NCBI GenBank assembly: GCA_964019135.1
Contig: OZ025265.1
Coordinates: forward strand, 3,038,496-3,102,495
Reading direction: 5' to 3'
Source of the DNA: Arenicola marina
Taxonomy: Eukaryota > Annelida > Polychaeta > Arenicolidae
DNA length: 64,000 bases
The translations under genes were made by a program, and so were the position numbers. Shown here piece by piece: positions 21,002-64,000 of the stretch (positions are counted from its first letter, which is position 1; each line of letters begins with the position of its first letter). The notes below the pieces were generated by a model. That model made no database searches, was not told the DNA's origin, and saw nothing but the letters and a program-made list of their open reading frames with translations.

Positions 21002-24000
21002 CTGGTGAGAAAAAAAAACACGACAAAAATGATTATGATTATTAAATTTACGATACATGCAGTTTTCACACTCTGTGTTTGTGATACAACCCACAGATGC
21101 ATATTGTATCGCGTTTATATCACAAGCAAAGTTATGAATGCTATGAAAATTATACAAATACACAACCAGTCTCGAGATACCAATTGCTTGGTTTGCATAA
21201 ACTTCTTAAATAGGGCAAATAACATTATATATTATTAATATAAACATAAAATGCAAATTACTAATTTAAATAAGCCACTTGAACGCCACATTCCTCAGGT
21301 AAAGCTCACACCGTTCAAGACGTGTTAAAGCTATTCACACAGCAATAGGTTCCCTGAGAAACTTGACATAATGCTTTGAATGGAGATGATGTAGCTGCAT
21401 TCTTCGCGTATAAAAAGGCAGTTATGGGTGCAATAAAGAACACGACATGTTGTTAAGCCAATTTTTGGGGCCAAACTAGTGCATCTTGCGTGAACAAGTG
21501 TGGTATTCTTGTGTACTACGTTAACAGAATTCGGGTAGTGCTGTCGTTTTTTGCCTTTTCAAATAAGATTGTATGTCTATATCGTCGAGAGTTAACATTT
21601 ACAGTCAGGCAAAGGGTACGGAACGTTTTTCCAAAGAATGTTGACAATCATAATGTTGCTGTATGAACAGCGTTCAGATACTAAGGTAAATACCAGGGTG
21701 ACTGTCCATACCTTAGACGCCGGCACACGGTTCTTTAGCTGCTTGATGATGTCATTGGCTCGCTGGCTGTTAATCTCCTCGCCGTTGTAACCCTGTTGGC
21801 CGCCGCTATGGGCGCCCTGGTAGAAGCGCACGGTGGGGTAGGCTCGTATCCCGGCCTGTTGGCACAGGCGTTGGTTCTGGTCGCAGTCGACCTTACCGGC
21901 TTTAACCCGCCCATCCAGGGCCTGAAACACGCCCAAGCGAACATTCTCATCATGACTGCGTTAAGACGAAGTTTTAAAGTTGCATATCGAGCTCTTTCCC
22001 GCCAAAACTAAAGCGGTCAAAATACAAATAATAATCAGTCCTTGAATCATCCAAAATTTTCTTTGTCTATATTCCACGCATGCCAGACTGCCAAATGGAG
22101 TCTCTTGCCTTGCCCGTGATATCAGTTAACCACAAGTTTTCGAATTAGTGGTAAACGGCATCCGTTTTTGTGGTTCGCGATGGTTTGTTATAAGTAGCAG
22201 TGCAGCGACAGTTCTGCGGTGTCCCAGGATAGACACGTTTGCCATATCTCAGCCGAAACGGTAGAATATTACCTACATGTTCAATACCTTGATCAAGTAA
22301 TTTATTAACCATCTATTACCGATCAATTAACAGTTGTTTCCTTAGGAACTAGTAAAATAACAATGAATGAGTGAATCGGTGTTCTTAGCCGCTTCTGTGT
22401 ACGCTAGGGCTGAACTGGGGCAAGGAACTCCCGGAACGATTATTGGATGAACCATGCCCCTGACTCAGTGCCAAGGTCCGGGCTTGACCCCAGGACCCAT
22501 TGATCTGCCGTCTAGTGCGCCAACCATGACACCAGAGACCTAATCATGGTGCACACATTAATTGCATTGTTACCTTAGCAACGCGTTCAAATTCTGGCGC
22601 GAAGACCTGGCAGTGACCGCACCAGGGGGTGTAGAAGTCCACCAGCCAGGCCTGCTGGCTGCGGAGCACGCTCGCAGTGAAGGTGGCGCCACTGAGGTCG
22701 GTGGCGGCGCTAGGCAGGTAGCCCAGGGCCCAGGCCCGGATCGACTGGGCGTCACGGTACCACCCGTTGTACTCGCTGCGGGAGGGGGTAGTGGTAGGGA
22801 GGGGGGGGGGGTAAAAGAAAAAAAAGGGGGTATTATAAAGCGTTATATATTTGCGAGAGGAAATGTAACGGCTGAAAATCTGCATTATACTTATGCAAGG
22901 GTTAAACGTTAATGGTAGGCATTGAGCAAAGCTCACAACAGATGGATCAAACGAGCAGACACAACCTTCCATCTCGTAATAATTTACCTTATTTTCACAC
23001 ACTGTTACCGGATTGAACAAATTGAAACTTCAATATAAATTAACTTCAATTGATTAGAAAACTTAAATTAACTTCAACTAATTAGAACACTCTCATTTAA
23101 TTGAACACTTTAATTTAATTTAATTGAATACTTTAATTTAATTGAACACTTTAATTTAATTGGACGCTTTAATTTAATTGAACTTTACTTTAATTGGACA
23201 CTTTACTTTAATTTAATTGGACACTTTACTTTATTTTAATTGAACACTTTAATTAAACACTTTACTTTAATTGAACTGACATTTCCGATTTAATTAAACA
23301 CTAATTTAATTGACCTTACAATTTCAATTGAATTGAACACTTTAATTTAATTGAAATGACAATTTCAATTGAATTGAACAAATTAATTTAACTGAAAAAG
23401 GTTGAAATCTTCAAATTAGTTTAAATCTTTAAATTAGTTTAAATATTTACCAAACAAGCACAAACAAGCACCGCACAAATGGCGAACGCTAAATGAAGTG
23501 GACCATAAAGGCAAGCAGAGTGCGAAGTGTCGCGTGACTCACTGGAATTTGGAGGCCTGTGAGGATCCCGGGGGGTAGAGCCTGATGGCCGGGTAGCCGC
23601 GCACCTTCTGGGTCTGACACAGAGCCTTCGCCTCGTCACAGTCCACCTGACCAATGTGGATCTCATCCATGTCCTTCAGCATCTACCAGAGAAAAGGTGT
23701 CACACAACACACTGTAGAGGGCTGGTTCGTAGCACTGTAAACTTTGTAAAGAAAAGTTTGACGCTTTAATAAAATTTCACATACACTGGCCAGCCCATCC
23801 CAAACTTTCCTTTACAAAGTTTACAGTACATCCTTGCACATACCGTGGTAAGACCCCTTACCCCCTTCACATACCCTTGCCAGCCCATGCCTCCCCTTTC
23901 ACATACCCTGCCCAGACCCCTCACCCCCTTTCACATACCCTGGCCAGCCCATCCCTCCACTTTCACACACCCTGGCTAGACCCCTCACCCCTTTCACATA

Positions 24001-27000
24001 CCCTGGCCAGCCCATGCCTCCCCTTTCACATACCCTGCCCAGACCCCTCACCCCTTTCACATACCCTGGCCAGCCCATCCCCCCCCCTTTCACATACCCT
24101 GGCCAGACCCCTCACCCCTTTCCCATACCCTGGCTAGACCTCTCACCCCTTTCACATATCCTAGCCAGCCCATCCCTCCCCTTTCACATACCCTGGCTAG
24201 ACCCCTCACCCCTTTCACATACCCTGGCTAGACACCTCGCCCCTTTCACATATCCTGGCCAGCCCATCCCTCCCCTTTCACATACCCTGGCTAGACCCCT
24301 CACCCATTTCACTTACCCTGGCTAGACCCCTCACCCCTTTCACATACCCTTGCCAGACCCCTCACCCCTTTCACATGTCCTGGCCAGTCTATCTCTCCCC
24401 TTTCACATACCCTGGTCAGACCCCTCACCCCTTTCACATACCCTGATCAGACCTCTCCCCCCTTTCACATACCCTGATCAGACCTCTCCCCCCTTTCACA
24501 TAACCTGATCAGACCCCTCATCACATACCTTGGCCAGACCTCCCCCCCCCCCTTTAATCACATCAACCTCATCCGACCCCTTCGCCCTATGGCATACCAT
24601 ATCCAAACCTCTTATCCCTGTTACATACCCTGGCCAGACCGCACCATCACCCCTAGCACATACCCTGCCCCCCACCCCTGCCCCCTACCCCTGACACGTC
24701 CGCCCTCCCACCACCCCCACTGACACATCCTGCCCCCCCTTATCACCCCCGACACATACCCTGGACCCCCCTTATCACCCCCGAAACATACCCTGGACCA
24801 CCCTTATCACCCTAGACACATACCCTGGCCCCCCTTATCACCCACGACACATACCCTGGCCCCCCCTTATCACCCCCTACACATACTCTGGCCCCCATTT
24901 ATCACCCCCGACCCATACCCTGCCCTCCCCCCCCCCTTATCACCCCCGACACATATCCTGGCCCCTGCTTATCACCCCCCGACACATACGCTGCCCCCCC
25001 CACCCCCTTATCACCTCCGACACATGCCCTGCCCCCCCCCCCCCTTTTCACCCCCGAAACATACCCTGGACCACCCTTATCACCCCAGACACATACCCTG
25101 GCCCCCCTTATCACCCACGACACATACCCTGGCCCCCCCTTATCACCCCCTACACATACTCTGGCCCCCATTTATCACCCCCGACCCATACCCTGCCCTC
25201 CCCCCCCCCCTTATCACCCCCGACACATATCCTGGCCCCTGCTTATCACCCCCCCGACACATACGCTGCCCCCCCCCCTTATCACCTCCGACACATGCCC
25301 TGCCCCCCCCCCCCTTTTCACCCCCGACACATACCCTGCCCCCCCCCCCTTATCACCCACGACACATACCCTGGCCCCCCCCCCCTTATCATCCACGACA
25401 CATACCCTGACCCCCCCTTATAACCTCCGACACATACTCTGCCCCCCCCTTATCATCCCCGACCCATACCCTGCCCCCCCCCCCCTTATCACCCCCGACA
25501 CATACTCTCGTTCCTCCTTGTCACCCCCGACACATACCCTGCCCCTCCTTATCACCCCCCGACACATACCCTTATCACCCCCGACACATACCCTGCTCTC
25601 CCCCCCTTATCACCCCCGACACATATCCTGGCCACTCCTTATCACCTCCGACACATACCCTGCCCCCCCCCCCCTTATCACCTCCCACCACATACCCTGC
25701 AATCCGCCCCCTTATCACCCCCGACACACACCCTGCCCCTCCTTATCACCCCCGACACATACCCTGCCCCCCCCCCCTTAACACCCACGACACATACCCT
25801 GGCCCCCCCCTTATCATCCACGAAACATACCCTGGCCCTCCCTTATAACCCCCGACACACACCCTGGCCCCACCTTATCATCCACGACACATACCCTGCC
25901 CCCCCTTATCACCCCCGACACATACCCTGGCGCCCCCCCTTATCATCCACGACACATACCCTGCCCCCCCCCCCTTATCACCCCCGACACATACCCTGGC
26001 CACCCCCCCCCCCTTATAACCCCCGACACATACCCTTGCCCCCCCTTATCACCCCAGACACATACCCTGGCCAGACTCCTCCACTCGGGCGCCAGTTGTT
26101 GACAGGGTCCACACCAGGGGGCGTAGAACTCCACGAGCCAGATGTCGCCCTTGGCCTTCTGACCGACACTCTTCTGGAAGGTGTCGCCAGTAAGGCGCAC
26201 CACGATGGGCTTCAGCGTGTCCTACAAGCAAGCGACGCGGCGTATAAATCACATGGTGCAGGTGCCACGCGGCGTATAAATCACATGGTGCAGGTGCGAC
26301 GCGGCGTATAAATCACATGGTGCAGGTGCGACGCGGCGTATAAATCACATGGTGCAGGTGCAACGCGGCGTATAAATAACATGGTGCAGGTGCCACGCGG
26401 CGTATAAATAACATGGTGCAGGTGCCACGCGGCGTATAAATCACATGGTGCAGGTGCGACGCGGCGTATAAATCACATGGTGCAGGTGCCACGCGGCGTA
26501 TAAATCACATGGTGCAGGTGCGACGCGGCGTATAAATCACATGGTGCAGGTGCGACGCGGCGTATAAATCACATGGTGCAGGTGCAACGCGGCGTATAAA
26601 TAACATGGTGCAGGTGCCACGCGGCGTATAAATAACATGGTGCAGGTGCCACGCGGCGTATAAATCACATGGTGCAGGTGCGACGCGGCGTATAAATCAC
26701 ATGGTGCAGGTGGCACGCGGCGTATAAATCACATGGTGCAGGTGCCACGCGGCGTATAAATCACATGGTGCAGGTGCCACGCGGCGTATAAATCACATGG
26801 TGCAGGTGCGACGCGGCGTATAAATCACATGGTGCAGGTGCGACGCGGCGTATAAATCACATAGTGCAGGACACGACGCCTGAACTGTCCTAACACCAGT
26901 ATGCTAGCCGGCTTCTCGTCCCCACAGCGAGAATGGTTTAAATAATCATGTTAGGTCTTTCGTGTTTGTATTGGTAGTTGCTCAAATACATGATATTAAA

Positions 27001-30000
27001 TCTTTATTACACACTGAATCCACACCTGACTGCTCTCAATACAGACAGCCATGTCCAAAATTTGATGACACAAGAAAGCCACACTTTCCTGAATTGATAT
27101 GCACAAGTTTGGCAAAAAAGTGTCAATCACTTTCATTTCTTATTTACACCATATGTTTACATTGACGAAAATTTAAATTTAAAATTTCCATTTCATTTAG
27201 AGTTTTTATCGGGAAAATGCCGTAGGGGTTGCGTTAAGCACCGTTCCGGTTCAATAACACGCCACTATTATCTCAGTACTGTATTCCAACACCTTAAAGC
27301 TTTTTCGTCCAGATGCAGCAAATTTTAAAAATACATTTTGCTTAATTCAGAAAATTCACCCCACCTCGAGGAACTCCACCATGTGGTTGACCTGGTGGTG
27401 GCCCTGGTAGGTGTGAGGCACGCTGTCGTTGTAGAAGATGGTGGTCGGGTAGGAGTGGATGTTGTACTTGTTGCACAGCGTCGAGTGGACCGTGCAGTCC
27501 ACCGTGCCGAAGTTGACCCGCCCCATGATCTGCTTGGAGGCCTTGCGGAACTCCGGCAGCAGGCGCATGCAGGGCGGACACCACTGAAAGGCCAACCACA
27601 ACCAAGGCGTTAAGATAATGAATACATGATGGATTGGTGTGGTAGGTTCTCTTTATATATCGCTTTCTGCATACCCAAACGCCCGATGTAATTTGGTACC
27701 GGGATCACGGAGCTACAGTAGGCAGCGTAGTCTCTGTAACTCGTTTTACATATCAGAGCTGTCTCACCGACACATGTGTTCACGCGTGCACATATGGTGC
27801 ATATATCTGTATACTGAAGATATATAGATGTACTTTACTTTGTATATAGAAGAGATATAGATCTACTTTACTTTGTATATAGAAGAGATATAGATCTACT
27901 TTACTTTGTATATAGAAGAGATATAGATCTACTTTACTTTGTATATAGAAGAGATATAGATCTACCTTACTTTGTATATAGAAGATATATAGATCTACTT
28001 TACTTTATATATACAAGAGATATAGATCTACTTTACTTTGTATATAGAAGAGATATAGATCTACCTTACTTTGTATATAGAAGAGATATAGATCTACTTT
28101 ACTTTGTATATAGAAGAGATATAGATCTACCTTACTTTGTATATAGAAGAGATATAGATCTACTTTACTTTGTATATAGAAGAGATATAGATCTACTTTA
28201 CTTTGTATATAGAAGAGATATAGATCTACCTTACTTTGTATATAGAAGAGATATAGATCTACCTTACTTTGTATATAGAAGAGATATAGATCTACTTTAC
28301 TTTGTATATAGAAGAGATATAGATCTACCTTACTTTGTATATAGAAGAGATATAGATCTACTTTACTTTGTATATAGAAGAGATATAGATCTACTTTACT
28401 TTGTATATAGAAGAGATATAGATCTACCTTACTTTGTATATAGAAGAGATATAGATCTACTTTACTTTGTATATAGAAGAGATATAGATCTACCTTACTT
28501 TGTATATAGAAGAGATATAGATCTACTTTACTTTGTATATAGAAGAGATATAGATCTACTTTACTTTGTATATAGAAGAGATATAGATCTACCTTACTTT
28601 GTATATAGAAGAGATATAGATCTACCTTACTTTGTATATAGAAGAGATATAGATCTACTTTACTTTGTATATAGAAGAGATATAGATCTACCTTACTTTG
28701 TATATAGAAGAGATATAGATCTACTTTACTTTGTATATAGAAGAGATATAGATCTACTTTACTTTATATATACAAGAGATATAGATCTACTTTACTTTGT
28801 ATACAGAAGAGGTATATATACTTTACTTTGTATATAGAAGATATGTAGATGTACTTTACTTTGTATATAGAAGAGATATAGATCTACTTTACTTTGCATA
28901 TAGAATAGATATAGATCTAATTTACTTTGTATATAGAAGAGATATAGATCTACTTTACTTTGTATATAGAAGAGATATAGATCTACCTTACTTTGTATAT
29001 AGAAGAGATATAGATCTACTTTACTTTGTATATAGAAGAGATATAGATCTACTTTACTTTATATATACAAGAGATATAGATCTACTTTACTTTGTATACA
29101 GAAGAGGTATATCTACTTTACTTTGTATATAGAAGATATATAGATGTATTTTACTTTGCATATAGAAGAGATATAGATCTACTTTACTTTGCATATAGAA
29201 CAGATATAGATCTAATTTACTTTGTATATAGAAGAGATATAGATCTACTTTACTTTGTATATAGAAGAGATCTAGATCTACTTTACTTTGTATATAGAAG
29301 AGATCTAGATCTACTTTACTTTGTATATAGAAGAGATCTAGATCTACTTTACTTTGTATATAGAAAAGATCTAGATCTACTTTACTTTGTATATAGAAGA
29401 GATCTAGATCTACTTTACTTTGTATATAGAAGAGATCTAGATCTACTTTACTTTGTATATAGAAGAGATCTAGATCTACTTTACTTTGTATATAGAAGAG
29501 ATCTAGATCTACTTTACTTTCTATATTGAAGAGATCTAGATCTACTTTACTTTGTATATAGAAGAGATCTAGATCTACTTTACTTTGTATATAGAAGAGA
29601 TCTAGATCTACTTTACTTTGTATATAGAAGAGATCTAGATCTACTTTACTTTGTATATAGAAGAGATCTAGATCTACTTTATTTTCTCTATTGAAGAGAT
29701 CTAGATCTACTTTACTTTGTATATAGAAGAGATATAGATCTACTTTACTTTGTATATAGAAGAGATCTAGATCTACTTTACTTTGCATATAGAATAGATA
29801 TAGATCTAATTTACTTTGTATATAGAAGAGATATAGATCTACTTTACTTTGTATATAGAAGAGATATAGATCTACCTTACTTTGTATATAGAAGAGATAT
29901 AGATCTACTTTACTTTGTATATAGAAGAGATATAGATCTACTTTACTTTATATATACAAGAGATATAGATCTACTTTACTTTGTATACAGAAGAGGTATA

Positions 30001-33000
30001 TCTACTTTACTTTGTATATAGAAGATATATAGATGTATTTTACTTTGCATATAGAAGAGATATAGATCTACTTTACTTTGCATATAGAACAGATATAGAT
30101 CTAATTTACTTTGTATATAGAAGAGATATAGATCTACTTTACTTTGTATATAGAAGAGATCTAGATCTACTTTACTTTGTATATAGAAGAGATCTAGATC
30201 TACTTTACTTTGTATATAGAAGAGATCTAGATCTACTTTACTTTGTATATAGAAAAGATCTAGATCTACTTTACTTTGTATATAGAAGAGATCTAGATCT
30301 ACTTTACTTTGTATATAGAAGAGATCTAGATCTACTTTACTTTGTATATAGAAGAGATCTAGATCTACTTTACTTTCTATATTGAAGAGATCTAGATCTA
30401 CTTTACTTTGTATATAGAAGAGATCTAGATCTACTTTACTTTGTATATAGAAGAGATCTAGATCTACTTTACTTTGTATATAGAAGAGATCTAGATCTAC
30501 TTTACTTTGTATATAGAAGAGATCTAGATCTACTTTATTTTCTCTATTGAAGAGATCTAGATCTACTTTACTTTGTATATAGAAGAGATATAGATCTACT
30601 TTACTTTGTATATAGAAGAGATCTAGATCTACTTTACTTTGTATATAGAAGAGATCTAGATCTACTTTACTTTGTATATAGAAGAGATCTAGATCTACTT
30701 TACTTTGTATATAGAAAAGATCTAGATCTACTTTACTTTGTATATAGAAGAGATATAGATCTACTTTACTTTGTATATAGAAGAGATCTAGATCTACTTT
30801 ATTTTCTCTATTGAAGAGATCTAGATCTACTTTACTTTGTATATAGAAGAGATATAGATCTACTTTACTTTGTATATAGAAGAGATCTAGATCTACTTTA
30901 CTTTGTATATAGAAGAGATCTAGATCTACTTTACTTTGTATATAGAAGAGATCTAGATCTACTTTACTTTGTATATAGAAAAGATCTAGATCTACTTTAC
31001 TTTGTATATAGAAGAGATCTAGATCTACTTTACTTTGTATATAGAAGAGATCTAGATCTACTTTACTTTGTATATAGAAGAGATCTAGATCTACTTTACT
31101 TTGTATATAGAAGAGATCTAGATCTACTTTACTTTGTATATAGAAGAGATCTAGATCTACTTTACTTTGTATATAGAAGAGATCTAGATCTACTTTACTT
31201 TCTATATTGAAGAGATCTAGATCTACTTTACTTTGTATATAGAAGAGATCTAGATCTACTTTACTTTGTATATAGAAGAGATCTAGATCTACTTTACTTT
31301 GTATATATAAGAGATCTAGATCTACTTTACTTTCTATATTGAGGAGATCTAGACACATTGTACCTTGAATATAGAAGATATGTATATACACCTATTGCAG
31401 CTTGGGCCTATAGCCCTGGCTATATAGCTACCAAACCAAATTAAAAACAAACAGAAGAATACTCACGAAGACAGATTCATGAACGTATATGACGTATAGA
31501 CCTATGTATAGTTATGATAAACCCCTCTACTGTACTTTGGGCCTGTAGGCATGGTTACAATGCTAATAAACAAACAAAGAAGACTGACCGGGGCGTAGAA
31601 GTCGACGAACCAGGGCTGTCTGCTGTTGACGACCTTGTTGGGGAAGTCGGTGGGACCCAGGACGCGCACCGGGGTGGCCGCACTGTCCCTGGCGAAGGCC
31701 GCGACGTCGTGCGCCGTCTGGCGGCCATGGTGGAACTCGTGGCCGCCGTCGGACTTGAAGACGGCGAAGGTGGGGAACTTGTGCACGTGCAGCCTGTTGC
31801 ACTCCGTGCGCTGCACGCGGCAGTCCACGCGACCGACCTGGAACGGGAGGTTGATTTAAAATTTCGTACAAATATATATAACACAGTTTGCACCGCTTTG
31901 CTAGAGAATCAGACAAAACGCCTGTTTTAACACAAAAACACGATTATTATAACCCAAGAGCGACTGGCGAGATGTGTAGGGAAGATTTGTTACTGAGAAG
32001 AGTCATCGGGCTGAGAAAACACGATGGAGATTATCTTCACCTCACACATTTAGCTTTAGATTTCGTTCAGGCACAAATGTAAGCGTTTAATAAGTCATTC
32101 GATCAGGAAAGATCCCCCCTCACAACAAAACAGTTAATAACAGTGTGAGAGTCGTTTGTCTCACCCTCCATTAATACACATATATATATATTTACATCTT
32201 TTTTAATGACAATAACATGCCGCCGTGGCAACAAAACACGACCTCGCTGTGCAATCGACAATCGTGTCCAGAAGGTGAGCCACCAAATTAATTAGGGCTG
32301 TTCCAATATTATTGAGGAAAGGTTCCATGAGACGGGGCTTGGCACCCATTGACCTTGTCCTAGCGGCAGTATGACATGTTGTGACAGGGTGTGCACAGTG
32401 GGAGGGTGTCACACTGACCTTGGCGTCATCCCGTAGCAGGGCGGGCAGCTTCCTCAGTTCCAGGTCCTCAGTCTCGCCGTCCACAAAGTGCACCAGCCAA
32501 GGGTCGGAACCCCGCTCCACGTTCTGAGACACAAGCAGGGCAGGGGTCACGGCAGGGGTCAGGACAGGGTCACGGTAGGGGTCACGGCATGGAGACGGGG
32601 CCGCGGTCACGGCATGGGTCAAGGCAAGGGTCACGGCATGGGTCAAGACAGGGGTCACGGCATGGGGAGGGGGCAGGGGTCACGACATGGGTCACGACAG
32701 GGGTCACGGCATGGGGACGTGGCAGGGGCCAGGGCATGGGGACGGGGCAGAGTTCACGGCAAGGGTCAGGACAGAGGTCAGGGCACACGTCGTCAAGCAA
32801 TACTTGAATACCAGCTAAATCGATTGCACCAACCATACTTGGATACCAGCTAACACGATCCAGTATTGATCCAAGCATACAAGCCCGTCGGTGCCTAAAC
32901 TAATTCAATATTATATCTACCGGTATACCGATAATTTGTGATTTTCACATTGTCATGTGATTATATGACGGACAAATGGCGGATTCCGTACGTTTTAATA

Positions 33001-48716: not shown

Positions 48717-49369
48717 AGTGATGTTTACTTTCGTGAATGTCAACAGATCGGAGCGTCTGTGCGTACTATAATTGCGCTTTATCAATCGTAGATCACGTAA
48801 TTGACCTATCACACGTGCTTACCTCAATATAGTTATCAGCGATAATCACAGACACTGATAAACGACATACACTGCCTGTCACACCGTCACCGGTTCACAA
48901 CGCTAACGTGGCGTCAGCAGCCGCAAAGTTTTGATCTCGCAAAGTCTCGAGAAACTGGGCAATCTTATACTAGATGGCGCCACCACCTTGGCGCCACCTT
49001 CAAGTGTTTCCGTTGTCCCGCTAGGCGGCGATATCACTCTACCGACTATCCTCTACCCAGCTGAGCAGCAGATGAACCCAAAGTGGCCGTACATCGAATG
49101 TATGCTACCATCTTATACTAGATCATGAGGTGTATCGTGAGAAATATAATATATTAGATTTTGCTGTATAAAGCAGATTCATAATGATGAGGTTGATGCT
49201 GCGGCAATGGGTATATAACTTAAATCTGGTTCAAACGGATCCATCCGCTTTCGCTCTTGGGAACCTTTATTAATGCATATCCCCTTCGTCTGGTCGCTGA
49301 CTACAAACAGTTTCGATCAAGGAAAACGTGACAAGACCATGATACAGACGGTTCAAGGACAATTCCCCC

Positions 49370-49610
49370 TCGGACACCGCCCCCCCCCCCCCCCCGCCCC
49401 GGACCATTCCCCCCCGGACAATTCTCCCCCGACAATTCCCCCCCGGACAATTCCCCCCTACGACAAGTCCACCCCGGATAATTCCCCCCCGGATAACTCC
49501 CCCCGGACAACTCCCCCGGGACAATTTCCCCCTAGGACATGTCCCCCCGGGATAACTTCCCCGGGACAACTCCCCCCCACCCCCCCGCCCCCACCCTTCC
49601 CCACCACTGC
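49370..49610. repeat. C-rich CCCCCCGGACAATT repeat block
   Basis: Degenerate units of about 14-16 bases, CCCCCCGGACAATTCC on the + strand. The same motif appears reversed at 49745-50390, about 140 bases away. Confidence 0.93.
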
Positions 49611-49744
49611 GTAGATACCACAGGAAGATATAAATCATGCAATATTTCGAATATGTATTAAAATCAGTCAAAACTAAGTAAAACAAAATCTTGGTGGAAT
49701 ATGAAAATGCATATGAAAATATTGGCCCCGGCTGGGTTTTTTTC

Positions 49745-50390
49745 CGACCGGGGACTGGCTGTCTGGGAGGGTTTTTTCGGGGGGGGGGGGGGGTGGGTGG
49801 GGGGTTGTCCGTTTGTGGGTATGTGTTTCTAGGGAATGGTTACCGTCCGGGGGCAATTGCTCGGAGGGAAATTGTCTGGGGTGGGGGTAGAGGGGGGTGG
49901 GGGGGGGGGGTTCCGGGTGGCAATTGCCCGGAGGAAGTCATGAGAGGGAATTGTCCTATTGCGAGGGGCATTTTCGGGAAGGGATATTGCGGGGGGAAAT
50001 GGTCTCGGGAGGAACCTACCGTGGGAATTGTCCTAGGGGGGTATTGTCGAGGGGGGGGGGGGCGAGGGAATGGTTCGGGGGTGGGGGAAGTGTCTAAGAA
50101 CCGGGAAATTGCCCAGGGGGGAATAGTCGGGATGGGGAGTTGTCCGAGCGGGCGATGTCCGGGGGGGAGTTGTACCGGGGAGAGTTGTCCCGGGGGAGTT
50201 GTCTCGGCGGGAGTTGCCCGGAGGGACTTGTCCTAGGGGGGATTTGTCCCGGGGGGAGTTGTCCGGGTGGGAGTTGCCCTAGGGGGGAATTGTTCGGGGG
50301 GGGAATTGTTGGGGGGAAATTGTCTGGGTGGGGGGGGTCTGCGGGGGAACTGACCGGGGGGTAATTGTCCGGGGGGAGTGGCCCTGCTCC
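49745..50390. repeat. G-rich GGAATTGTCCGGGGGG repeat block
   Basis: Complementary orientation of the block at 49370. Units read GGGGGGAATTGTCC on the + strand, with many G-runs of 4-12. Together the two form a large imperfect inverted repeat around a 140-base AT-rich spacer. Confidence 0.93.
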
Positions 50391-53925: not shown

Positions 53926-54065
53926 CCTCCCCCCCCCCCCCCCCTTCAGGACATACTAGAGCGCATTTTCTTCTTTTACGGCTATATAATACCTTACGCC
54001 ATTAATGTAATGTCATAACTTACAATTATCGTACAAGTTATTTGCTTTTCCGTTCAGTTGGTTGC

Positions 54066-54328
54066 CTAGGCGACCGGCGCTATTCTCCTGTGCATCCAGG
54101 CAGACTTCAGGTTGTGCCACAGGCGGTGTTTGAGCTCCCGCCTGAGGTGGGGCAGGTCGAGCCCCACCACCAGCCCCACCGCAAACAGAATCATGACCAC
54201 CCCGAGCGCTCCCGTGGCCACGTGGTCCGCCTGCAGGTCCGACTCGGTCAGGCCCATAGACTTCCAGTACCGCTCGGAAGAGGTCAGCACCTCCTCTGGC
54301 AGCAGAGACTCCCGTTCGTCTGGATCAG
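54066..54328 (-). CDS. CCP gene terminal exon (stalk, transmembrane helix, tail)
   Basis: Acceptor GATCAG. An acidic stalk (DPDERESLLPEEV...) precedes the hydrophobic helix ATGALGVVMILFAVGLVVGL. A basic tail DLPHLRRELKHRLWHNL ... ends IAPVA with TAG at 54066-54068. The basic residues after the helix fit a type I orientation with a cytoplasmic C-terminus. Confidence 0.9.
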
Positions 54329-57300
54329 CTGATCGACGAAATAATGAGAGGAATTATTGACATTAGTAAAGCAAATAGCTAGCGCAAGCGAACTCTTAAG
54401 GCAACAAAAGGCTTACGACTTTCATTTCGCTTAACAGCCCCCATGAAACGTTTTCGGATTTGGAGTAAATATCAGCTGTACATAAATGTATTCAAGCAAA
54501 GAGAGGTCGAAGCCTATTATGTCATGTCTTTAATAATTAAATCAGCTGCCCCACAAACTTAACGAATACATTATTCAATGTTAACACTGGATGTATACTT
54601 CAAATTAAAGTTAATTTATAAGCGACGGGCTAGATGTCTCTTGTCGGTGACCGCCCATCGGCTGCTGTCATAGTGAGTAGTTGTGACGTCAAAATGTTAT
54701 AAACATGACGTCACAATGGGAGTTCCTAAGCAACCGAATGATATGACAAGCACGTGCATGGCATTCGTCATCCCGCGAAAGATATTCTTTATGGCAAGCC
54801 GAAGTGAGATTAATTTTGAATATTACTCTAGATGTATCCCCTCGGAATATCTCAATTAATAAATATACGCTTCCATTTTTTAGGTAGCACCTATCCATAT
54901 TATCCCATTTCTCTCATATAAGGCCCAACACATGGCATTGCTCAGTTGCATCTGTACATATGATTTACTTCATATGATTACATGAACCTCGTTACTGGAC
55001 ACAAACTGGCAAATAACCTCTTTGTTATGGCGAAAATCGCCATCATGTCGGTCAGTTCTGTTTGTGTGTGTGTGTCTGTCTGTCTGTCTGTGCGCGCGAT
55101 AACTGTCGAACACTTGCAGCTATCAAACTTGTCAAACTTCGCCAACAGATTCTAGAAGTCTAATCTCAGGTCAAGTTCGTTGCCGGATAAAATCGGTCGG
55201 ACGTCGACGTCACAGTGACGTCATACGTCCAAAACACATTTTTAGGCATAAATCGCTTAATATTATAACCATCAAATTTGACGTGGGACCAATAGTTTGC
55301 GAGCACGTCATGTCAAAATGACAACATTGACGTCACAAAATTCAGGTACAGGTACGGTATTCTAATCGTTATCAAAATTTGCAGTGACCTTAAGAGTAAA
55401 TCTGAGGTACTGTATGTCAAAAATCGGAGCGACCGGTCTAGCGGTTATGACGTACCGGGTCATTTCAATTTAAAAGGAACGAAATTCACGGTGCCCTCAA
55501 TATTGACCGTACAAACTTGAAAATGGTATAGAACACTGAGGAATTGTATTGCCCGTCAGGGAAAAATGTGGTTAAAATTCGCCGTGTTAACACTTTTGCG
55601 TAAATCAACTAAAATAACATTGCAATGGAAAAACTATACGGCGTTTCCGTTCGCCTAACGCGACCCCCCTCTCGCCGCCCCAACCATGGCCTTCTCCATG
55701 CCCGCCAATACACACACGCATTCTGGCTTTGATTCGCTTCACTGGCGCACACTACTGCCTTTATCCACACCCACCCCTACCTTACACCCCTGCCCTATGT
55801 ATTGCTGGCCGGTCCGCTGCCCTTCTGCTACTTGCTGCATGGTTCTCTTACCGTGAACCGAGAGCCGACTTCCTCCACCACCCCCCCCCCCACCCGCGGG
55901 CCTCAACTGAGGTCGAGGTGACAGCGATTGCATCAGCATGGAAAGCTACGAAACGCTGTAATTCCCTTAATAATCGGCCCAGAAGATCCCGGTTTGATTT
56001 ATAATGTGCAGCGGGACGACCCCCATGCATCAGTCATGCGTCATCAGACGTCCATTTAAGCCGTAAAATCTCAGCCGCCAGGGTGATATGCCTTGTAATA
56101 TATGTTACCATGTTAATCGCAGTCCACACTAATTGGCGACTGACCACGCCTACTCCTACAGACTGGTGACACCAAACTTACCCACACAGACTGGTGACAC
56201 CAAACTTACCCACACAGACTGTTGACACCAAACTTACCCACACAGACTGGTGACACCAAACTTACCCACACAGACTAGTGACACCAAACTTACCCACACA
56301 GACTGGTGACACCAAACTTACCCACACAGACTGGTGACACCAAACTTACCCAGACAGACTGGTGACACCAAACTTAGCCACACAGACTGGTGACATCAAA
56401 CTTACCCACACAGACTGGTCACACCAAACTTACCCACACAGACTGGGGGGCGCTTTAGAATCCATTCTCCATTTCCGCCGCACGTGGTTTCAATGTCACC
56501 AGACAACAGGATGTGGCCCGGGAAACATTTGTAGCGTGCCGTGTGCACTCGGGCGTAGCGATCAATCCGCCAGGTGGCGTTCACGACGTTCGCTGGGTTC
56601 GGACAACGGATGTCTGGAACATCAGTGTAAAGAGCGTAATTACTCCCTTAACAGATACTTAAAACAGACCGTTGTCGATTATAAGGAAATGTGCGAGACT
56701 TAGATGGCAGCATAATCGCCGCCAATCGGGCCTGACGGGCGAGAGGGGCCGGAGGGGGCGGAAGGGAGCAGGAGGGGCCGGGACGGGGCGGGAGGCCCGG
56801 CCGGGGCTGGGCGATGGTGGGAGGGGGCGTGTTACAGGAAATCATTTTCTTTTGCAGATAAGTTGGGTATGGAGGCTCTTCGAGACATAAGTAAAAAGTC
56901 GTCATTTACCCATTCATTCATTGGATATTGGTAATGACATCAATAATGCATACGCACAATTAGTAAGATGATAACGATTTATAAAGCAAATTAACTTAGT
57001 CTCCTTTGCTTCGATGTCGAAAACAAACCCTTTAGAGGGGAGTAGTCATGAAATGTGCATTACCTCTCGAAAGTTTAAACATCTATGGCATAATGTGATT
57101 TGTAGAAGCTTAAGGAGAACAGTTAATTTACGAAATCGATAATTTACATTGACAGCACACGAACGACAACTCTGACAACCTTTATTAATATTTATGCACA
57201 GAATGGCGTAGAAATTGTATTCGTGACAGTCACCTTGACACGAGGGGGCCGATCCAGACCAATTTCCAGACGACTGACACGTTCTGACCTCATCCCCGGC

Positions 57301-60300
57301 AGCCAATAGCAGGCCTTCCTCACACGTGTAGGCGACGGTTGCCCCGACAACCAGCCCTTCCATGGCGATGATTTCACTCCCGGAAAGTTGGTTCGGTACA
57401 TAGCACTGAAGGGCTTAGGTAAATAAAACAGAACAATCCATTAGCTGAACACCAATGTACATGTACACGCTATTGAATCTTCTGACAGAGGGTCTAGAAT
57501 TAAAGAAGGACATATGTTTACATATTTAATTAAACTTCAGAATTGTGAAGCACCTTTGTGCTTTGATATGGCTTAAGTTACCCCCAGGGTTGATAGTGAT
57601 GGAGGGGTGAGGTAGTTTTACGCATAATTTATCTAAGAGAAAGGAAGCATCAGAAATAACTTGACAAATGTATTTATTCAAATAACTGTTAGCGGTGGGA
57701 AGCTGATAAAAAAACCTAAACAATTCGGACATATCATCAGGTGTCATGCATTAGTTATAAAATAAAATGCCACAATTATTTCTTCCTCCCTTTAAAACAA
57801 TAAATAGCCATGCCAAAGGTCAACTTATATGACATTTTGCCTGCTTACGGACACACAGTAGTGCGTCGTCATCCCACAATCCATCGGGGTTACATGTGAC
57901 GCGTCCTTCGCCGCCAGAGGGTTCAAAGTTCACGTGACAGGTGTACACAGCCTGACTGAAGACAGTCGTCTCGTTGTATTGCACAGTAGTGTGGTTTACT
58001 GACGGCGGGGGGCCACAGTCAACAACTGGCAACAAAGAAAATATGATAGTTGTCTCAGTTAAGTGTTTTAACACTTCTAAATATGTGCAAGTTTATGATA
58101 ATTAGTGAATATATCTATAACATTTGTAAAAATGTGGTGACTTTGAAATGTGGTGAAATTCATTAAAAAACTTGTATTGTGCGCAAATTAAATAACAATT
58201 TGCGGATATATTGATAAGTTCAATATAATATTTGAGAGTGTTTTAATTAGGTGTAATTAGGTGCAACCGACTCAGTGGCGTTAAACAAAGATAGAGCGGT
58301 CAGACCCAGGCCCTTACCCCACCCTCTCAGCTCTTGATACTTACTTTTACATCTTGGAACATCCGCGGACCAAGCACCATCTGGCGAGCAAAACAATGCG
58401 TCACTTCCGTTGATGACGTATCCATGACGACACATGAAGAACATCCGGGAACCAATCGTAAGGCCCTCGATGTCAAAGGTCAAGTTAGGATCCATGACTT
58501 CGGTGGTCACGTTTTCGCACTTTATCTCTGAAAGATGAAAGGAGAGGTGGTATAGCTTCATATAGCATATCCATATTAGATATTTACAGCAGTGGCCGTA
58601 TTTTACTTATATTGTCCTTTTTTTACAGTGCCAAGTGTAGCATATTATGGCAATTGTGGACAGATTGTGATAAAAATATCGTGTAACCGATGGAAGTTAT
58701 AAGCCTTACAACAGTAGAAGTTCCCCGTAAAAGTCACACAAATTAGCATTGTTCGCTATTATGCTTTCAAATTTCTTACCCTGACATCTGACGTCACCAC
58801 CTGTCCATTGCCCACTAGACAGACACGTTCTGTTGACATCTCCATCTGCCAGAATGTAGTTCCTCTGACACTGACAGGTCAGTGTCTGGTTTACCATTGC
58901 CTGTGTCGGCATGCAACGCACCCCAACGCCCTCTTCCGGCACAAGGCAGAGAATCTCTGTGCCGACGAAGAGACAGATTCATGAGGAATTCAGATATTGC
59001 TTGGTAAAGACATGAGTCGTTGATATGTAGGATGCGTTTGACACCAGACTCTCATCCTACAGCAGCATATTAATGCACGATGCAGTACATATGGACTGCG
59101 AGGTAGAGGGAGGTTGGTTGGTTGTATATTCAGGACGCTTTAACCAATTCTAGTCATATTGCGTCGATGGGAGAAGGAAGGGCGAGCGGAGCCTTGTCCC
59201 CGGGGTAACCCCCTACACCTTGCGAAGAAGGATATAGAATCTTTATCCTGTAACGACACAAAAATGACCACAGCGGGGCTAGAACCATCGATCCACGTGC
59301 TGTTAGGCTCTCAGGCGGCCCGAGCACTCGATCCGTGCGACCGCTCTAACCCACTGAGCTATCGGGCAGCCTCGGGAGGAGGGAGGGGAGCGGGGTGTTC
59401 ACTTTGAATGGGGTGAGCTTCCCCGAACGAGAACGGGTGGTCACAGCAAAGTAAGGGGTGCACAAAAGGGGGATGTTCTACAACCTAACATGGAGTAGCG
59501 CTAAACACGGGCCTTCACGTTCAAAACTAAGGGGGGGGAGGCTAATTAAAGAAGGGGATCTATGATCCCTGGATCCAACAATGTAGTTGAATATGTAATG
59601 CATGATTGAACCTTGAGGTCAGCTCAATATAAGCAGGATACTTAATTGTCCACTTTGGAATACTTTTATATAGAGACTTGCACCAACGAGTGGGCCTACT
59701 ACTATTGCTCTAATGGCTGCCCACAATAATAGGTGCGACTTACACACACCATGACTATATATAACTACTGGTATTTCAAGATGCCTATTGCGAGATGTTT
59801 AACCAGGGTCCCAAAACGCTCTGTGTGGTATCACGCACCACATCACACTAACCTTGACAGATGAGGTCATCGATCTGCCAGGATCCGTTCACGAGACAGG
59901 TCCAGACCTGACTTCCGGCGATGTACTTGTATCCCTCCGCGCAGCCGACTTCCAGCGTCTCCCCGACCCCGAGTCCCGTCATGGCGACGATCCGGGAATG
60001 GGCGCTGAGCCACGGAGAGGGATCCGGACAAAGAGTCCCTGCCATGGTCAAGTAGCATATTTTTTAGGATTTGCAAATTAGTTGGCGATTTACGTCTTAC
60101 ACAGGGTCGGATCCAGATATGCTGGAAAATGGGGGGCCGGTTTGGAGTAATGGCCTAACTTTATGGTTTTCACCTGTTAAATGGTATACATTTTGGCCCC
60201 AAAGGAGGGGGGGGGGCGCCGGGTCGCCCCCTTGGATCCGCCCCTGTTACATATAGACTTGTACCACATTTTAAATATATATTTATTTCACTTGTCCTTT

Positions 60301-62997
60301 CTACTGTGTTTACTTTTGTTATTTTTTCTACCGTGCTGTTTCATTTCTTAAACGATATAGCTTATAATATCTCTTTGGATTGCTGGTTAAAAGATCGAAC
60401 ATATATAAACACATATCCAGCAACATACTTTCACATTTGATATCTGCAATTGTCCAAGTCCCATCAGCTTGGCATTCAACAACGTCACTTCCTGTGACGT
60501 AATAGTATCCTTGACTACACTGGTAGGAGGCAGTCGCTTGGTAACGCGAGTCCCTGAACTGAGCCACAGTGTTTGGTATCTCAGGTGGGTTGTTGCATGA
60601 AATATCTGCAAAATAAATGTCACCTATATCAATATAGATAAAATACCATGGAAACTGTTTTGTTTTGTTGATCCAGCGGCAGATATTGGAGAGTGAATGA
60701 GTCCAATTTGGGAATTGCGAGGCGATAAGAGGCAATAAATCATAGTCCATAGTCCATAGTCAATAGTCAATAGTCCATAGTCCATAGTCCATAGTTGCCC
60801 CCATTTTATCTAATGGTACACTACGTAAGTTTTATGGTGAACGAACGGTATGACCAACTTGTCGGTAGTGATCAATCGTTATAGCAATTAGATAAAATGA
60901 GTTTGTCCAATCACAGCGCAGATCTCGTCTATGTATCTGTCCAATCGGGATAGCCGTTCCTTCTCTTTACTGTGGACCTCCGCGAGGCTCGACATGCGGC
61001 ACATACCCGCCTATCTCTCCCCCTTCCATAAGAGGACCGATTCTGTGTAACTTGTGTGGGTCCCTTACCTTCACAGACGAGGCTGACGTCACTCCATCTC
61101 TCCGACTCCTGACACACCGACGTCATCTCTCCCGACACACGACGGTAGCCAGTGTCACACGCGTAGAACGCACGTGACCCCAACACGTGACCCGTGACGT
61201 TTGTTGGCCGTCCATGTTCCACTTCAGGTGGCCGCGGGTCGCACGTCATTTCTGAAGAGTAAACGTCGAGCAGAAAATGACGTGGAATGGGAGTAATTAC
61301 AGTTAGAAATAAATCCATGAAGCATCAAAATGATCATTAGCAATGAAAAGTGACACAAAACTTGTGAATATATGTTGTATGAGGTGTTTCCTTGCGTGTT
61401 GGTATGTAATAGTGAGTTTAATTTTCATTATCGGACTTGTATGTGACCAAATGAGAAATTCTATACGGGATCTGGAAGTTTATAATTGCCGCATTTAGCA
61501 GGATGGAACAACATGGGTATTATTGGTGCGGCCGAGTTGATTACTGTATTGGATCGTTGCGTGTGTGTCTATATATACAATAAACATACCTACATTTGCA
61601 TGCTAATTAAGTCTTTCCTTGCTACAATTGTAGAACATGGTGGTGGTGTGTACCTTGTATAAAACTGACAAGACCCTGTTTCTAGCTTCTAGTTTTTTGA
61701 TTGTACGGCTATTTTATATCAGTTTAGATCGAGTTCTGTAAAATAAAAGTCGATTGATAAAACTGAAAGGCTTTGATTGGATCGAAAGTTGTCTCTCACC
61801 CTGGCATATGAGGTCTTCGCCCTCCGGGGTCCAGGTTCCGTTGCCGAGGCACGTCTTGATGACGTCACCGCTGTCGTTCTTGTATCCCTCAGCGCAGCGA
61901 TACGAAACCGAGGCTCCGAACAGGAAACTGAAGACGATCATCTCGGTGTGAGCGACCTCTGGTGGGGGCTCACAGACAATATCTGTGGAGAGAGGAATGA
62001 GCTTTATCTTTCCTTAAGTGGATTAGTCTGACCCATTATATCAGTGTGTCTCGGATTATAATCAATTTCGCATAAAATGATCCATTAATTATAGTTTACT
62101 TGTAAATGTATCACAGTCCAATTAAAACTGAATTTGAGATATTAAGCATCATGCCAAAAGATATGGAAAATTCATTACTGCATAAGCTATTAAGGATATT
62201 GTCAGTAAAATGATGTTGTCCGTGACTGTTCATGACAATGGCTATGAACATGTGTAATGATCCGTCCGTAGTATTGATTAGTAACATGAATTGTCGATTC
62301 TGTAATTTAAACCAACTGCATCACGCTAGCTACCTTGGCAATATGGCGCCTTTCCACTCCATACTCTTGTTTCAAGACACGCGCGGACGAGATCTCCCGA
62401 GACATGCCGCCTTCCCTTCAGACACGTGTAGGTGATGGTTGACCCATATAGGTCATCAATCCAGGACGTGGCGGCATTGGTAACACGCGGAGGCGGGCCG
62501 CATCTTATAACTTCGAAGGCGACAAAAATAAAATATTATATATTAATATTATATTATATATACGTTTGCTGTCTTTTCGCAATTATTTTTATTGAGTTTT
62601 AAATTATTTTTCTTCAACTACCCAATTCATAGCAAAACACGCACAATATAGAGATAATACAATATAGATAGAAATTGGATCCAAGTACAGAAAAAACAGA
62701 AATATATATAGCAATAAAATAAAATGAATTAGTATATAAGCCTTATAGATATATATGTATATACATGTATTTATAAACATAATGTTCTGTACATACAATG
62801 TTACTCACGTTCGCAATATAACAGATCTCCCGCCCACTGAGTCGTGTCTTCACACACTCTCTCAAAAGTTACGTTGACTGGCCAATAGCCGGGCAGACAC
62901 CGGTCAAGCAATCTCGTGCCTACTGGAAATCTGGCAAATGTCTTGAATAGGTATCTGTCACTGTGATGGACACGTGGAGGGTTACCACATTCAATTT
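54066..62997 (-). CDS. Membrane-anchored multi-sushi (CCP) protein, 5' partial (12 exons seen)
   Basis: A type I membrane protein whose visible part is 11 consecutive sushi/CCP modules, a short stalk, one transmembrane helix and a roughly 30-residue basic tail. Exons in transcript order: 62997-62809, 62510-62334, 61982-61800, 61251-61069, 60605-60429, 60038-59853, 58956-58780, 58527-58345, 58025-57849, 57413-57234, 56613-56434, 54328-54066. Each CCP exon is 177-189 bp, starts and ends in phase 1, and carries four cysteines and the late tryptophan, the standard one-module-one-exon layout. Joined, they give about 750 residues in frame. The N-terminus and signal peptide lie beyond 64000. Complement regulators, selectin-like and synaptic sushi proteins share this architecture. 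I cannot assign an orthologue, so no symbol is given. Two of its introns contain arrays made from CCP exon ends. Confidence 0.93.
54329..56433 (-). repeat. Last CCP gene intron: microsatellite and 28-bp donor array
   Basis: A TG/TCTG microsatellite lies at about 55057-55095 and a C-run near 55880. The array at 56158-56444 is ten copies of the 28-bp unit CACACAGACTGGTGACACCA + AACTTACC. On the - strand each unit reads CCAGTCTGTGTGGGTAAG, the exon end plus donor. The rest shows nothing recognisable. Confidence 0.95.
56434..56613 (-). CDS. CCP gene exon (module 11, membrane-proximal)
   Basis: IRCPNPANVVNATWRI ... YKCFPGHILLSGDIETTCGG ... GEWILKRPPVCV|G. Acceptor GTTCCAG, donor G|GTAAGT. CCAGTCTGTGTGGGTAAG at its end is the seed of the 28-bp array that follows. 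Confidence 0.94.
57234..57413 (-). CDS. CCP gene exon (module 10)
   Basis: LQCYVPNQLSGSEIIAMEGL ... YTCEEGLLLAAGDEVRTCQS ... GNWSGSAPSCQ|G. The acceptor is taken as ACCTAAG because that alone gives the phase-1 start; a nearby CTTCAG would break phase. Donor G|GTGACT. Confidence 0.88.
57849..58025 (-). CDS. CCP gene exon (module 9)
   Basis: VDCGPPPSVNHTTVQYNETT ... YTCHVNFEPSGGEGRVTCNP ... GLWDDDALLCV|R. Acceptor TTGCCAG, donor C|GTAAGC. Confidence 0.94.
58345..58527 (-). CDS. CCP gene exon (module 8)
   Basis: IKCENVTTEVMDPNLTF ... FFMCRHGYVINGSDALFCSP ... GAWSADVPRCK|S. Acceptor TTTCAG, donor A|GTAAGT. Three N-glycosylation sequons (NVT, NLT, NGS). Confidence 0.94.
58780..58956 (-). CDS. 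CCP gene exon (module 7)
   Basis: ILCLVPEEGVGVRCMPTQAM ... LTCQCQRNYILADGDVNRTC ... GQWTGGDVRCQ|G. It has two extra cysteines (RCMP and TCQCQ), so it carries six instead of the canonical four. Donor G|GTAAGA. Confidence 0.9.
59112..59374 (-). mobile_element. tRNA-derived SINE, family 1, copy 3
   Basis: The - strand head CGATAGCTCAGTGGGTTAGA and the B-box-like GATGGTTCTAGCCCCGC are followed by the shared body, ending at GCGTCCTGAATATACAACC. It is in the intron between modules 6 and 7 of the CCP gene. Divergence from the copy at 42575 is modest. Confidence 0.85.
59853..60038 (-). CDS. CCP gene exon (module 6)
   Basis: TLCPDPSPWLSAHSRIVAMT ... VGCAEGYKYIAGSQVWTCLV ... SWQIDDLICQ|G. Acceptor ATGGCAG, donor G|GTTAGT. 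Confidence 0.93.
60429..60605 (-). CDS. CCP gene exon (module 5)
   Basis: ISCNNPPEIPNTVAQFRD ... YQCSQGYYYVTGSDVVECQA ... GTWTIADIKCE|S. Acceptor TTTGCAG, donor A|GTATGT. Confidence 0.94.
60740..60796. repeat. ATAGTCC heptanucleotide microsatellite
   Basis: CATAGTCCATAGTC / AATAGTC repeated about eight times in the intron between modules 4 and 5. Nothing else is recognised in that intron. Confidence 0.9.
61069..61251 (-). CDS. CCP gene exon (module 4)
   Basis: MTCDPRPPEVEHGRPTNVTG ... FYACDTGYRRVSG ... SVCQESERWSDVSLVCE|G. Acceptor CTCTTCAG, donor G|GTAAGG. One NVT N-glycosylation sequon. Confidence 0.94.
61800..61982 (-). CDS. CCP gene exon (module 3)
   Basis: IVCEPPPEVAHTEM ... YRCAEGYKNDSGDVIKTCLG ... 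GTWTPEGEDLICQ|G. Acceptor TCCACAG, donor G|GTGAGA. Confidence 0.94.
62334..62510 (-). CDS. CCP gene exon (module 2)
   Basis: IRCGPPPRVTNAATSW ... YTCLKGRRH ... RACLETRVWSGKAPYCQ|G. The acceptor is TTCGAAG, a weak tract; donor G|GTAGCT. It has no internal start codon, so it was found only by reading for the sushi pattern. Confidence 0.9.
62809..62997 (-). CDS. CCP gene exon (module 1 in window)
   Basis: EIECGNPPRV ... LLDRCLPGYW ... RVCEDTTQWAGDLLYC. Four cysteines and W are in place. Acceptor TTTACAG, donor C|GTGAGT. At 189 bp it is the longest module. Confidence 0.92.
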
Positions 62998-63054
62998 CTG
63001 TAAATAAATGAAATGACGTGGTGTTTTATGCTGTTCTTTGAACAAACACGGTGG

Positions 63055-63172
63055 GCCAAGACCTTTTTCGGAACGATGACGGATGAATGGGTGAAACATA
63101 AGCCCCAGATTAGGTGCCCCGGATTCGAACCGAGGACCTGCGCTAACCTCTACAACAGGAATCCATCGTCTC
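63055..63172 (-). mobile_element. tRNA-derived SINE, family 2, copy 4
   Basis: The - strand reads GGTCCTCGGTTCGAATCCGG (B-box) then CACCTAATCTGGGGCTTATG, matching the body of the copy at 7843. The tRNA head is partly degraded. Confidence 0.7.
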
Positions 63173-63342
63173 CCCCGTAAAACAAAGACAGCATACATAA
63201 CAACAAAAAGAGAGACCATTTTCGTGTCTACAGCTGTTTCTTCTCAAATAATTTTTCTATTTCTTAGGTAGAAGTAACAGTTAACTTTACATTTATATAA
63301 TTACATACTGGAGCCTCACCTATAAACACTGAATCGAGCCTC

Positions 63343-64000
63343 ACATGTTCACAATGGAGTCTGACCTGGACACACTGGAGCCTCACCTGGACACACTGGA
63401 GCCTCACCTGTACACACTGGAGCCTCACCTGTACACACTGGAGCCTCACCTGTACACACTGGAGCCTCACCTGTACATACTGGAGCGTCACCTGTACACA
63501 CTGGAGCCTCACCTGTACACACCGGAGCCTCACCTGTACACACTGGAGCCTCACCTGTACACACTGGAGCCTCACCTGTACACACTGGAGCGTCACCTGT
63601 ACACACTGGAGCCTCACCTGTACACACTGGAGCGTCACCTGTACACACCGGAGCCTCACCTGTACACACTGGAGCCTCACCTGTACACACTGGAGCCTCA
63701 CCTGTACACACTGGAGCCTCACCTGTACACACTGGAGTCTCACCTGTACATACTGGAGCCTCAGCTATACACACTGAAGCCTCACCTGTACACACTGGAG
63801 TCTCACCTGTACACACTGGAGCCTCAGCTATACACACTGGAGCCTCACCTGTACACACTGGAGTCTCACCTGTACACACTGGAGCCTCACCTAGACACAC
63901 TGGAGCCTCACCTGTACACACTGGAGCCTCACCTGTACACACTGGAGCCTCACCTGTACACACCGGAGCCTCACCTGTACACACTGGAGCCTCACCTGTA
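63343..64000 (-). repeat. 21-bp array at the right edge, built from a CCP exon end
   Basis: About 30 copies of TGGAGCCTCACCTGTACACAC (written here as TGGAGCCTCACC + TGTACACAC). On the - strand this is GTGTGTACAG|GTGAGGCTCCA. In frame it reads APVCTG, the typical last residues of a CCP module with a phase-1 donor. The array continues past the window. It is open in more than one frame but is not itself taken as coding. Confidence 0.95.

Follow-up and report, generated by a model that had tools for sequence, protein, structure and literature searches.

Five introns in two genes, a multi-sushi gene and the ERdj5 gene, contain tandem arrays whose unit includes the last bases of the upstream exon and its GT donor. 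The excess of donor-spanning arrays in this region is clear. We regard the arrays as minisatellites of the type called 'mirages' in amphioxus, with a donor bias that is mainly the outcome of a retention filter acting on ordinary duplications; we give this reading a probability of about 70%.

Both genes are encoded on the minus strand of the window, by which we mean the whole stretch of 64,000 nucleotides analysed (C20:3038496-3102495). The ERdj5/DNAJC10 gene (20981..44988) has 15 exons: exons 1-5 at 44988-44818, 42437-42269, 41399-41349, 40761-40676 and 40423-40298, exons 6-10 at 40057-39722, 33169-33080, 32523-32419, 31837-31589 and 27583-27365, and exons 11-15 at 26221-26066, 23682-23543, 22775-22574, 21921-21712 and 21001-20981. 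The C-terminus of the protein is IPKDEL, and the top PDB matches are entries for DnaJ homolog subfamily C member 10 (5ayk/3apo). Among the named matches listed, identity is 63% to Haliotis asinina, 61-62% to siboglinids, 61% to Lingula and 60% to Owenia; that to Branchiostoma belcheri is 54%, and the top match among those listed reaches 64%. When the first 13 exons are read with their outermost donors, 93-100% of the protein length is aligned with at least 120 homologs.

The other gene is a multi-sushi (CCP) receptor-like gene, of which the 3' part lies at 54060..64000 (minus strand), with the 3' end near 54060 and the 5' part extending upstream, outside the window. Its sushi exons have phase-1 boundaries, one of them matches Pfam PF00084, and the last exon encodes a hydrophobic segment, as judged by eye. 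Exons for other domains are located farther upstream, up to about C20:3.117 Mb. One of these is identified by Pfam as DUF7402, while for WSC-like and other upstream exons, recognised by eye, Pfam gave no match. We assumed that all sushi and other-domain exons up to this position form one mosaic receptor-like gene.

The single assembly from which the window is taken, also used for the genome-wide counts, comprises 867 Mb in 762 contigs. It includes a mitochondrial contig (C762, 15,942 bp) with its genes on a single strand in the order COX1-COX2-ATP8-COX3-ND6-CYTB-ATP6-ND5-ND4L-ND4-(presumed rRNA region)-ND1-ND3-ND2, which we take to be the common annelid order. These genes were named by eye from ORFs, except COX1 (Pfam). 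Among the COX1 matches listed, Pilargis wolfi ranks first (91%), followed by further annelids that include many Phyllodocida. Amphioxus was rejected as the host on the basis of gene order, COX1 and ERdj5, which indicate an annelid and probably a phyllodocid.

Two of the five donor arrays belong to the sushi gene. The 21-bp array has the unit CTCCAGTGTGTACAG/GTGAGG (the slash marks the exon–intron junction) and its 3' part was located by TRF at 63302..64000 (minus strand). With 124 units in total, 95 of which contain AGGT[GA]AG, it extends 1.9 kb past the edge of the window to C20:3104402, where it starts at the donor CTCCAGTGTGTACAG/GTGAG of a sushi exon. This exon, exon B, is the second of a duplicated pair; the exon B array accounts for 42 copies that had been considered as an array of the exon A donor (66538). 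The two exons of the pair are 85% identical, and their homology stops within the repeat unit. The 28-bp array (56158..56446, minus strand, TRF; last exon base 56434) has the unit CCAGTCTGTGTGG/GTAAGTTTGGTGTCA. Its donor is CTGTGTGG/GTAAGT, and the 24-base boundary is present in nine copies.

The remaining three arrays are found in the ERdj5 gene. In intron 2, local alignment revealed an old array, not detected by TRF, in which the boundary between exon 2 and the intron recurs four times in diverged form (41690..42269, minus strand). The copies score 58.3, 48.3, 39.7 and 38.3 bits, the highest score among 40 shuffles being 26.8. They are located near +124, +313, +438 and +562, that is, with a spacing of about 125 bp and once of 189 bp, and three of the four have retained the GT at the junction (by eye). 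The donor of exon 6, GGCAAGGGCATG/GTGAGTGG, is part of a 72-bp array (39320..39759, minus strand, TRF) with 6.1 copies and 99% matches. In intron 11, arrays of 31-32 bp (23832..26072, minus strand, TRF) contain many copies of the donor CTGGCCAGG/GTATGTG, and the exon 11 boundary occurs 18 times within 1500 bases. Extension of the sequence upstream of the window revealed a sixth donor array, at C20:3116481, with 87 units of 51 bp and the donor GGCTGGAG/GTATGT. In all six arrays the unit includes the donor and an exonic part of about 8-46 bases (by eye), and in all six the acceptor lies outside the array.

All five introns listed in the initial annotation thus contain an array that includes their own donor. 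The periods given there included 21, 28, about 32 and 72 bases, and for the range of about 92-126 bases the spacing of the exon 2 copies is about 125 bp, once 189 bp. That the arrays arose independently and differ in age is in agreement with their unrelated units and with matches ranging from 72 to 99% in the four arrays detected by TRF, to be compared with 64-85% identity among the exon 2 copies. Dozens of donor-identical sites had been claimed to follow the true donors. This applies to the exon 11 array, in which 51 GT sites downstream equal or exceed the true donor in score, and to the 21-bp array, with 92 such sites as counted from the preceding duplicate exon. The corresponding numbers are eight for the 28-bp, four for the 72-bp and two for the exon 2 array.

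For statistical analysis of the region, 83.5 kb (the window and 19.5 kb upstream) and those exon ends that could be placed were considered. Probes of 24 bases centred on a boundary were compared with up to 1500 bases of their own intron, the scan being confined to each intron and the cut-off being 19/24. Six of 32 donors (4/25 inside the window and 2/7 outside, one of the latter being the start of the 21-bp array flagged initially), none of 31 acceptors and none of 32 exon-internal probes had copies in their own intron (Fisher P = 0.024; the regional P values are optimistic because the window had been chosen for these arrays). Copies of intron-internal probes were found in 19 of 82 cases overall, namely for 15 of 18 in donor-array introns and 4 of 64 in other introns.

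The arrays were also seeded at random in collapsed gene space (20,000 runs). The 13 seeded arrays comprised those that TRF detected within the spans of the two genes and, in addition, the exon 2 array, with pieces of one complex merged and with 55046-55092 included; a version with 12 arrays gave the same outcome. Six of the 13 span a donor, compared with 0.49 expected and a simulated maximum of five. For acceptor-spanning arrays, none was observed and 0.45 were expected in the same simulation, so that their lack is within random expectation. An annotation-free test (donor score of at least 8) on the window and the upstream sequence found a donor in 7 of 28 arrays, compared with 2.5 ± 1.5 after shuffling and two with the reversed motif. 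By the seeding simulation, the pattern is beyond chance in this region, as had been proposed, and the accompanying idea of repeated seeding at exon–intron boundaries fits the donors of the region but finds no counterpart at acceptors.

The other 7 of the 13 arrays span no donor. A 32-bp array with 184 copies in ERdj5 intron 6 (33429..39318, minus strand, TRF) abuts the 72-bp array without copying the donor, and a 33-bp array with 108 copies is internal to intron 9 (27808..31378, minus strand), the exon 9 donor not being copied. A 32-bp array in intron 10 (26235..26870, minus strand) ends 13 bases before exon 11, and a 12-bp array with a 73-bp higher-order period in intron 7 (32539..32785, minus strand) ends 15 bases before exon 8, in both cases without a copy of the acceptor. 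These two arrays fit a filter against acceptor copies, although they do not prove it.

To the region we compared a set of 18 loci, taken for sushi or kinase matches and excluding the flagged genes and their close relatives on C20. Many of the protein-kinase loci are intronless or located on foreign contigs. Tandem copies were found for 2 of 27 donors and for none of 25 acceptors. Two of 22 arrays span a donor (0.5 expected, P = 0.09) and none spans an acceptor (0.74 expected), so that the donor excess at these loci is only suggestive and weaker than in the region. The two cases are a 33-bp unit with 2.1 copies and 97% matches (L016, C2) and a 67-bp unit with 2.6 copies and 85% matches (L026, C19), and these are young stages of donor arrays. 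Two further donor probe matches, at L032 (18/24) and L052 (19/24), were rejected as chance, there being no tandem array at the donor. The annotation-free test gave a weak signal here as well: 5 of 36 arrays of the other loci had a donor score of at least 8 (2.2 ± 1.4 shuffled, one reversed), but two of the five come from the same locus and a third belongs to a relative of the window gene; at score 7, six arrays compare with 4.1.

At similar sushi exons on C20 (14.2, 32.34 and 32.41 Mb), the arrays are related to those of the window but differ from them. L011, L012 and L013 have 30-bp units at the same donors as the 28-bp unit of the window, and the 21-bp array of L040 is homogenised to another variant than that of the window. 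Similar genes thus differ in array unit and copy number within a single assembly. We take these sushi genes to be paralogs of the window gene, as judged from their sequence, in which case the arrays would outlast gene duplication and evolve in concert. The related but different arrays also argue against an assembly artefact or a chance overlap of ordinary minisatellites with strong GT sites. Such an origin might be suspected, as the data are from one assembly without reads and the window was picked for its unusual appearance. We consider it very improbable, given that the copies differ among themselves and that a further case was detected within 20 kb of the window and two more at other loci.

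Genome-wide, we searched for patterns of three octamers at a spacing of 10-40 bases, counting matches and not arrays. The triple AGGTGAGT has 8528 matches compared with 3089 for the reversed motif, and AGGTAAGT has 3844 compared with 2525. For GTGAGGAT, a permutation of AGGTGAGT, 4013 matches (reversed 3321) were found, and for the acceptor-like TTTCCAGG 979 (reversed 902). These counts were used only as agreement in direction, because matches within one array are non-independent (dozens per large array) and AGGTAAGT is within the range of the AGGTGAGT permutation.

The enrichment of AGGTGAGT but not of the acceptor-like octamer would also be expected from a mutational hotspot specific for donors. 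At the G-rich 5' ends of introns, breaks might result from co-transcriptional R-loops, stalled forks or U1-bound nascent RNA, and their repair might generate tandem duplications irrespective of selection. The excess of donor-spanning arrays over random intron positions is in line with this, as is a positive G skew of the coding strand in six of seven donor arrays compared with two of seven internal arrays in a hand-picked set. However, G-richness is in part the donor consensus itself, the young case L016 shows no skew, and selection alone predicts the same positions. We regard such a hotspot as possible, with the odds against it. A seeding process and random duplication with selective retention at donors cannot be told apart here.

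Another question is whether the arrays are passive. If units divisible by three (21, 51 and 72 bp) were translated, the true donor would be the last copy and the arrays would represent expanded coding repeats. Read in the frame of the exon, the 51-bp array is open throughout (ORF of 1562 codons), and its 87 units contain no in-frame stop, where 9.5 stop-making changes are expected, a figure that drops to about 1.9 when shared variants are counted only once. Exon 6 and the 72-bp array share an open frame of 330 codons, and the 21-bp array has a mild excess of synonymous changes (79 non-synonymous and 34 synonymous, compared with 88.6 and 26.1 expected). The substitutions in the 51-bp array are nevertheless near neutral, with 144 non-synonymous and 59 synonymous changes (neutral expectation 134.6 and 58.9) and an even distribution among codon positions (73, 64 and 66 changes). 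The 21-bp array contains five in-frame stops and shows no third-position bias (50, 29 and 38 changes by codon position), and the 28-, 31-32- and 67-bp arrays cannot code throughout. Substitution and stop counts led us to reject coding repeats as a general explanation; we consider it improbable, with a small residual chance of some coding role for the 51-bp and 21-bp arrays.

Within the 21-bp unit, donor positions average 4.9 changes compared with 5.7 at other positions. The donors of the copies are thus hardly less variable, and there is no clear sign of selection keeping extra donors. As substitutions are near neutral and inner donors are not specially conserved, we interpret the arrays as passive minisatellites. 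Periods not divisible by three are frequent (28, 31-32, 67), and splicing from an inner donor would then change the reading frame.

The initial annotation had mentioned the model of intron gain by AGGT tandem duplication as a related idea. If it applied, the introns themselves would have been born from these duplications. An AG/GT junction is indeed present in the 21-bp and 51-bp arrays, and the model has been published for other genes (PMC4974935, PMC3087553). The arrays do not fit it. Four of the six junctions are without AG/GT, none of the 31 acceptors is copied, and the sushi introns are located at phase-1 domain boundaries. Introns at such boundaries are usually old. Acceptors outside the arrays and phase-1 sushi boundaries point to pre-existing introns; as the two splice sites do not both come from a duplicated segment, we rejected this origin, which we consider most unlikely.

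For mirage-type minisatellites shaped by a retention filter, the following course may be envisaged. A small tandem duplication of about 20-130 bp would arise across an exon–intron junction. The unit then expands, in one case to 124 copies, and is homogenised, as the form of the arrays shows. Splicing would still start from the outermost donor, which adjoins the real exon, and the copies would be harmless within the lengthened intron. Duplication of an acceptor, by comparison, would leave a second AG together with part of the exon ahead of the real acceptor, alter the mRNA and usually be lost to selection. Our preferred reason for the donor bias is accordingly that a copied donor would fall inside the intron harmlessly and a copied acceptor would not. 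This filter is possibly supplemented by biased mutation where the transcribed 5' end of an intron is rich in G. Several points count against the retention reading: the donor excess at the 18 other loci is weak, the G skew of donor arrays would suit a hotspot equally well, avoidance of acceptors relative to random seeding lacks support (0 compared with 0.45 expected), and the 51-bp array is stop-free and the 21-bp array shows its synonymous excess (34 compared with 26.1).

A wider generalization, which we consider doubtful, would have minisatellites arise at 5' splice sites as a general rule in several lineages of Bilateria. Donor-directed mutation (e.g. R-loop or U1-linked breakage) would repeatedly seed the copies, introns would lengthen from the 5' side, and the outermost of dozens of identical donors would be reliably selected through exon definition. 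Copies might also seed exon duplication, as suggested by the sushi exon pair with its homology ending inside a repeat unit.

Boundary-spanning intron minisatellites of amphioxus, which the initial annotation had mentioned, are published as 'mirages' for Adh3, the globins BflGb6/BflGb9, PGBD5 and TnC (PMC3087553, PMC3902484). The consulted parts of these papers give unit lengths of 10-160 bp (PMC3087553) and of 60 and 108 bp (PMC3902484), and report undisturbed splicing, somatic instability and cases at both 5' and 3' boundaries. As in amphioxus, the annelid arrays have minisatellite-like units of variable length that span the exon–intron boundary, carry splice signals and occur in several genes. 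Unlike the mirages described there, the cases found here are all at donors, and they reach up to 124 units. Cases at the 3' boundary number 0/31 in the region and 0/25 elsewhere, where about 0.45 and 0.74 are expected, a sample too small to exclude them.

Other known systems are less similar, as far as the consulted parts of the sources show. Intron gain by tandem duplication according to Rogers/Hellsten (PMC4974935) likewise involves duplication around splice-site sequence, but here there is no sign of a new intron, and the arrays lie behind donors with unique acceptors outside. In the dual-specific AGGT splice sites of UBC, the intron length is a multiple of the unit and both splice sites lie in the repeat (PMC10809524). 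Units carrying AG/GT are shared with two of our six arrays, in which, however, only the donor is in the repeat, and acceptor probes have no copies in the arrays. Human internal tandem repeats, with units of 30 bp on average, alter the exon–intron structure in recent paralogs (PMC2812944). They, too, lengthen exons or introns by minisatellite-size units; donor-copying series are not among the features described in the consulted part of that paper.

The arrays may shed light on intron growth and on the ability of the cell to pass over dozens of false splice sites. They represent natural constructs for studying the choice of a single donor by the spliceosome when many identical ones are present, and the asymmetry between donors and acceptors leads to a testable prediction on selection against splice-site duplications and on intron lengthening. 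No annelid report of boundary-spanning arrays was found in the literature searched, the coverage of which leaves out most subscription papers. The kind of array is already known from amphioxus; new here are the annelid phylum and the donor bias, which is not stated in the consulted parts of the amphioxus sources. Boundary-copying minisatellites are thereby extended from amphioxus to an annelid, so that they either originated repeatedly or are widespread and have been overlooked.

A sushi exon is duplicated in tandem at positions 3650–2400 of L009, the locus upstream of the window that holds the donor end of the 21-bp array (C20:3105.6–3104.4 kb), with 85% identity over ~320 bp. The end of homology between the two copies falls within the 21-bp repeat unit, and a single stray unit is present in the intron preceding the first copy. 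Taken together, these two features suggest that the duplication may have been mediated by the array.

At C2:51736000–51745000 of the Arenicola marina genome, intronless open frames, 2041 and 630 codons long, encode numerous sushi domains, in contrast to sushi genes elsewhere that have one domain per exon.

The window contains further arrays. In ERdj5 intron 6, 184 copies of a 32-bp unit (33429–39318) directly adjoin the 72-bp donor array, with which they have no unit in common. Two arrays of a 15-bp G/C-rich unit (49357–49578 and 50103–50376), inverted relative to each other and ~500 bases apart, are located between the ERdj5 and sushi genes. The window edge (1–840) is occupied by a GC-rich minisatellite with a 44-bp unit containing CGGGGG runs.

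Contig C3 carries, mainly at 45–57 Mb, a large set of kinase-like genes with the domain within one open frame of ~250–350 codons. Five equally scoring kinase-domain copies, spaced 8.53–8.54 kb, at C5:5402476–5437356 represent either a recent tandem duplication or an assembly repeat. Kinase genes are also found on nine small contigs (C443, C465, C504, C330, C652, C609, C497, C684 and C232), which probably belong to a commensal or contaminant. Among those listed, the inner stops of these genes are exclusively TAA or TAG, resembling some ciliates, in which both codons are read as glutamine.
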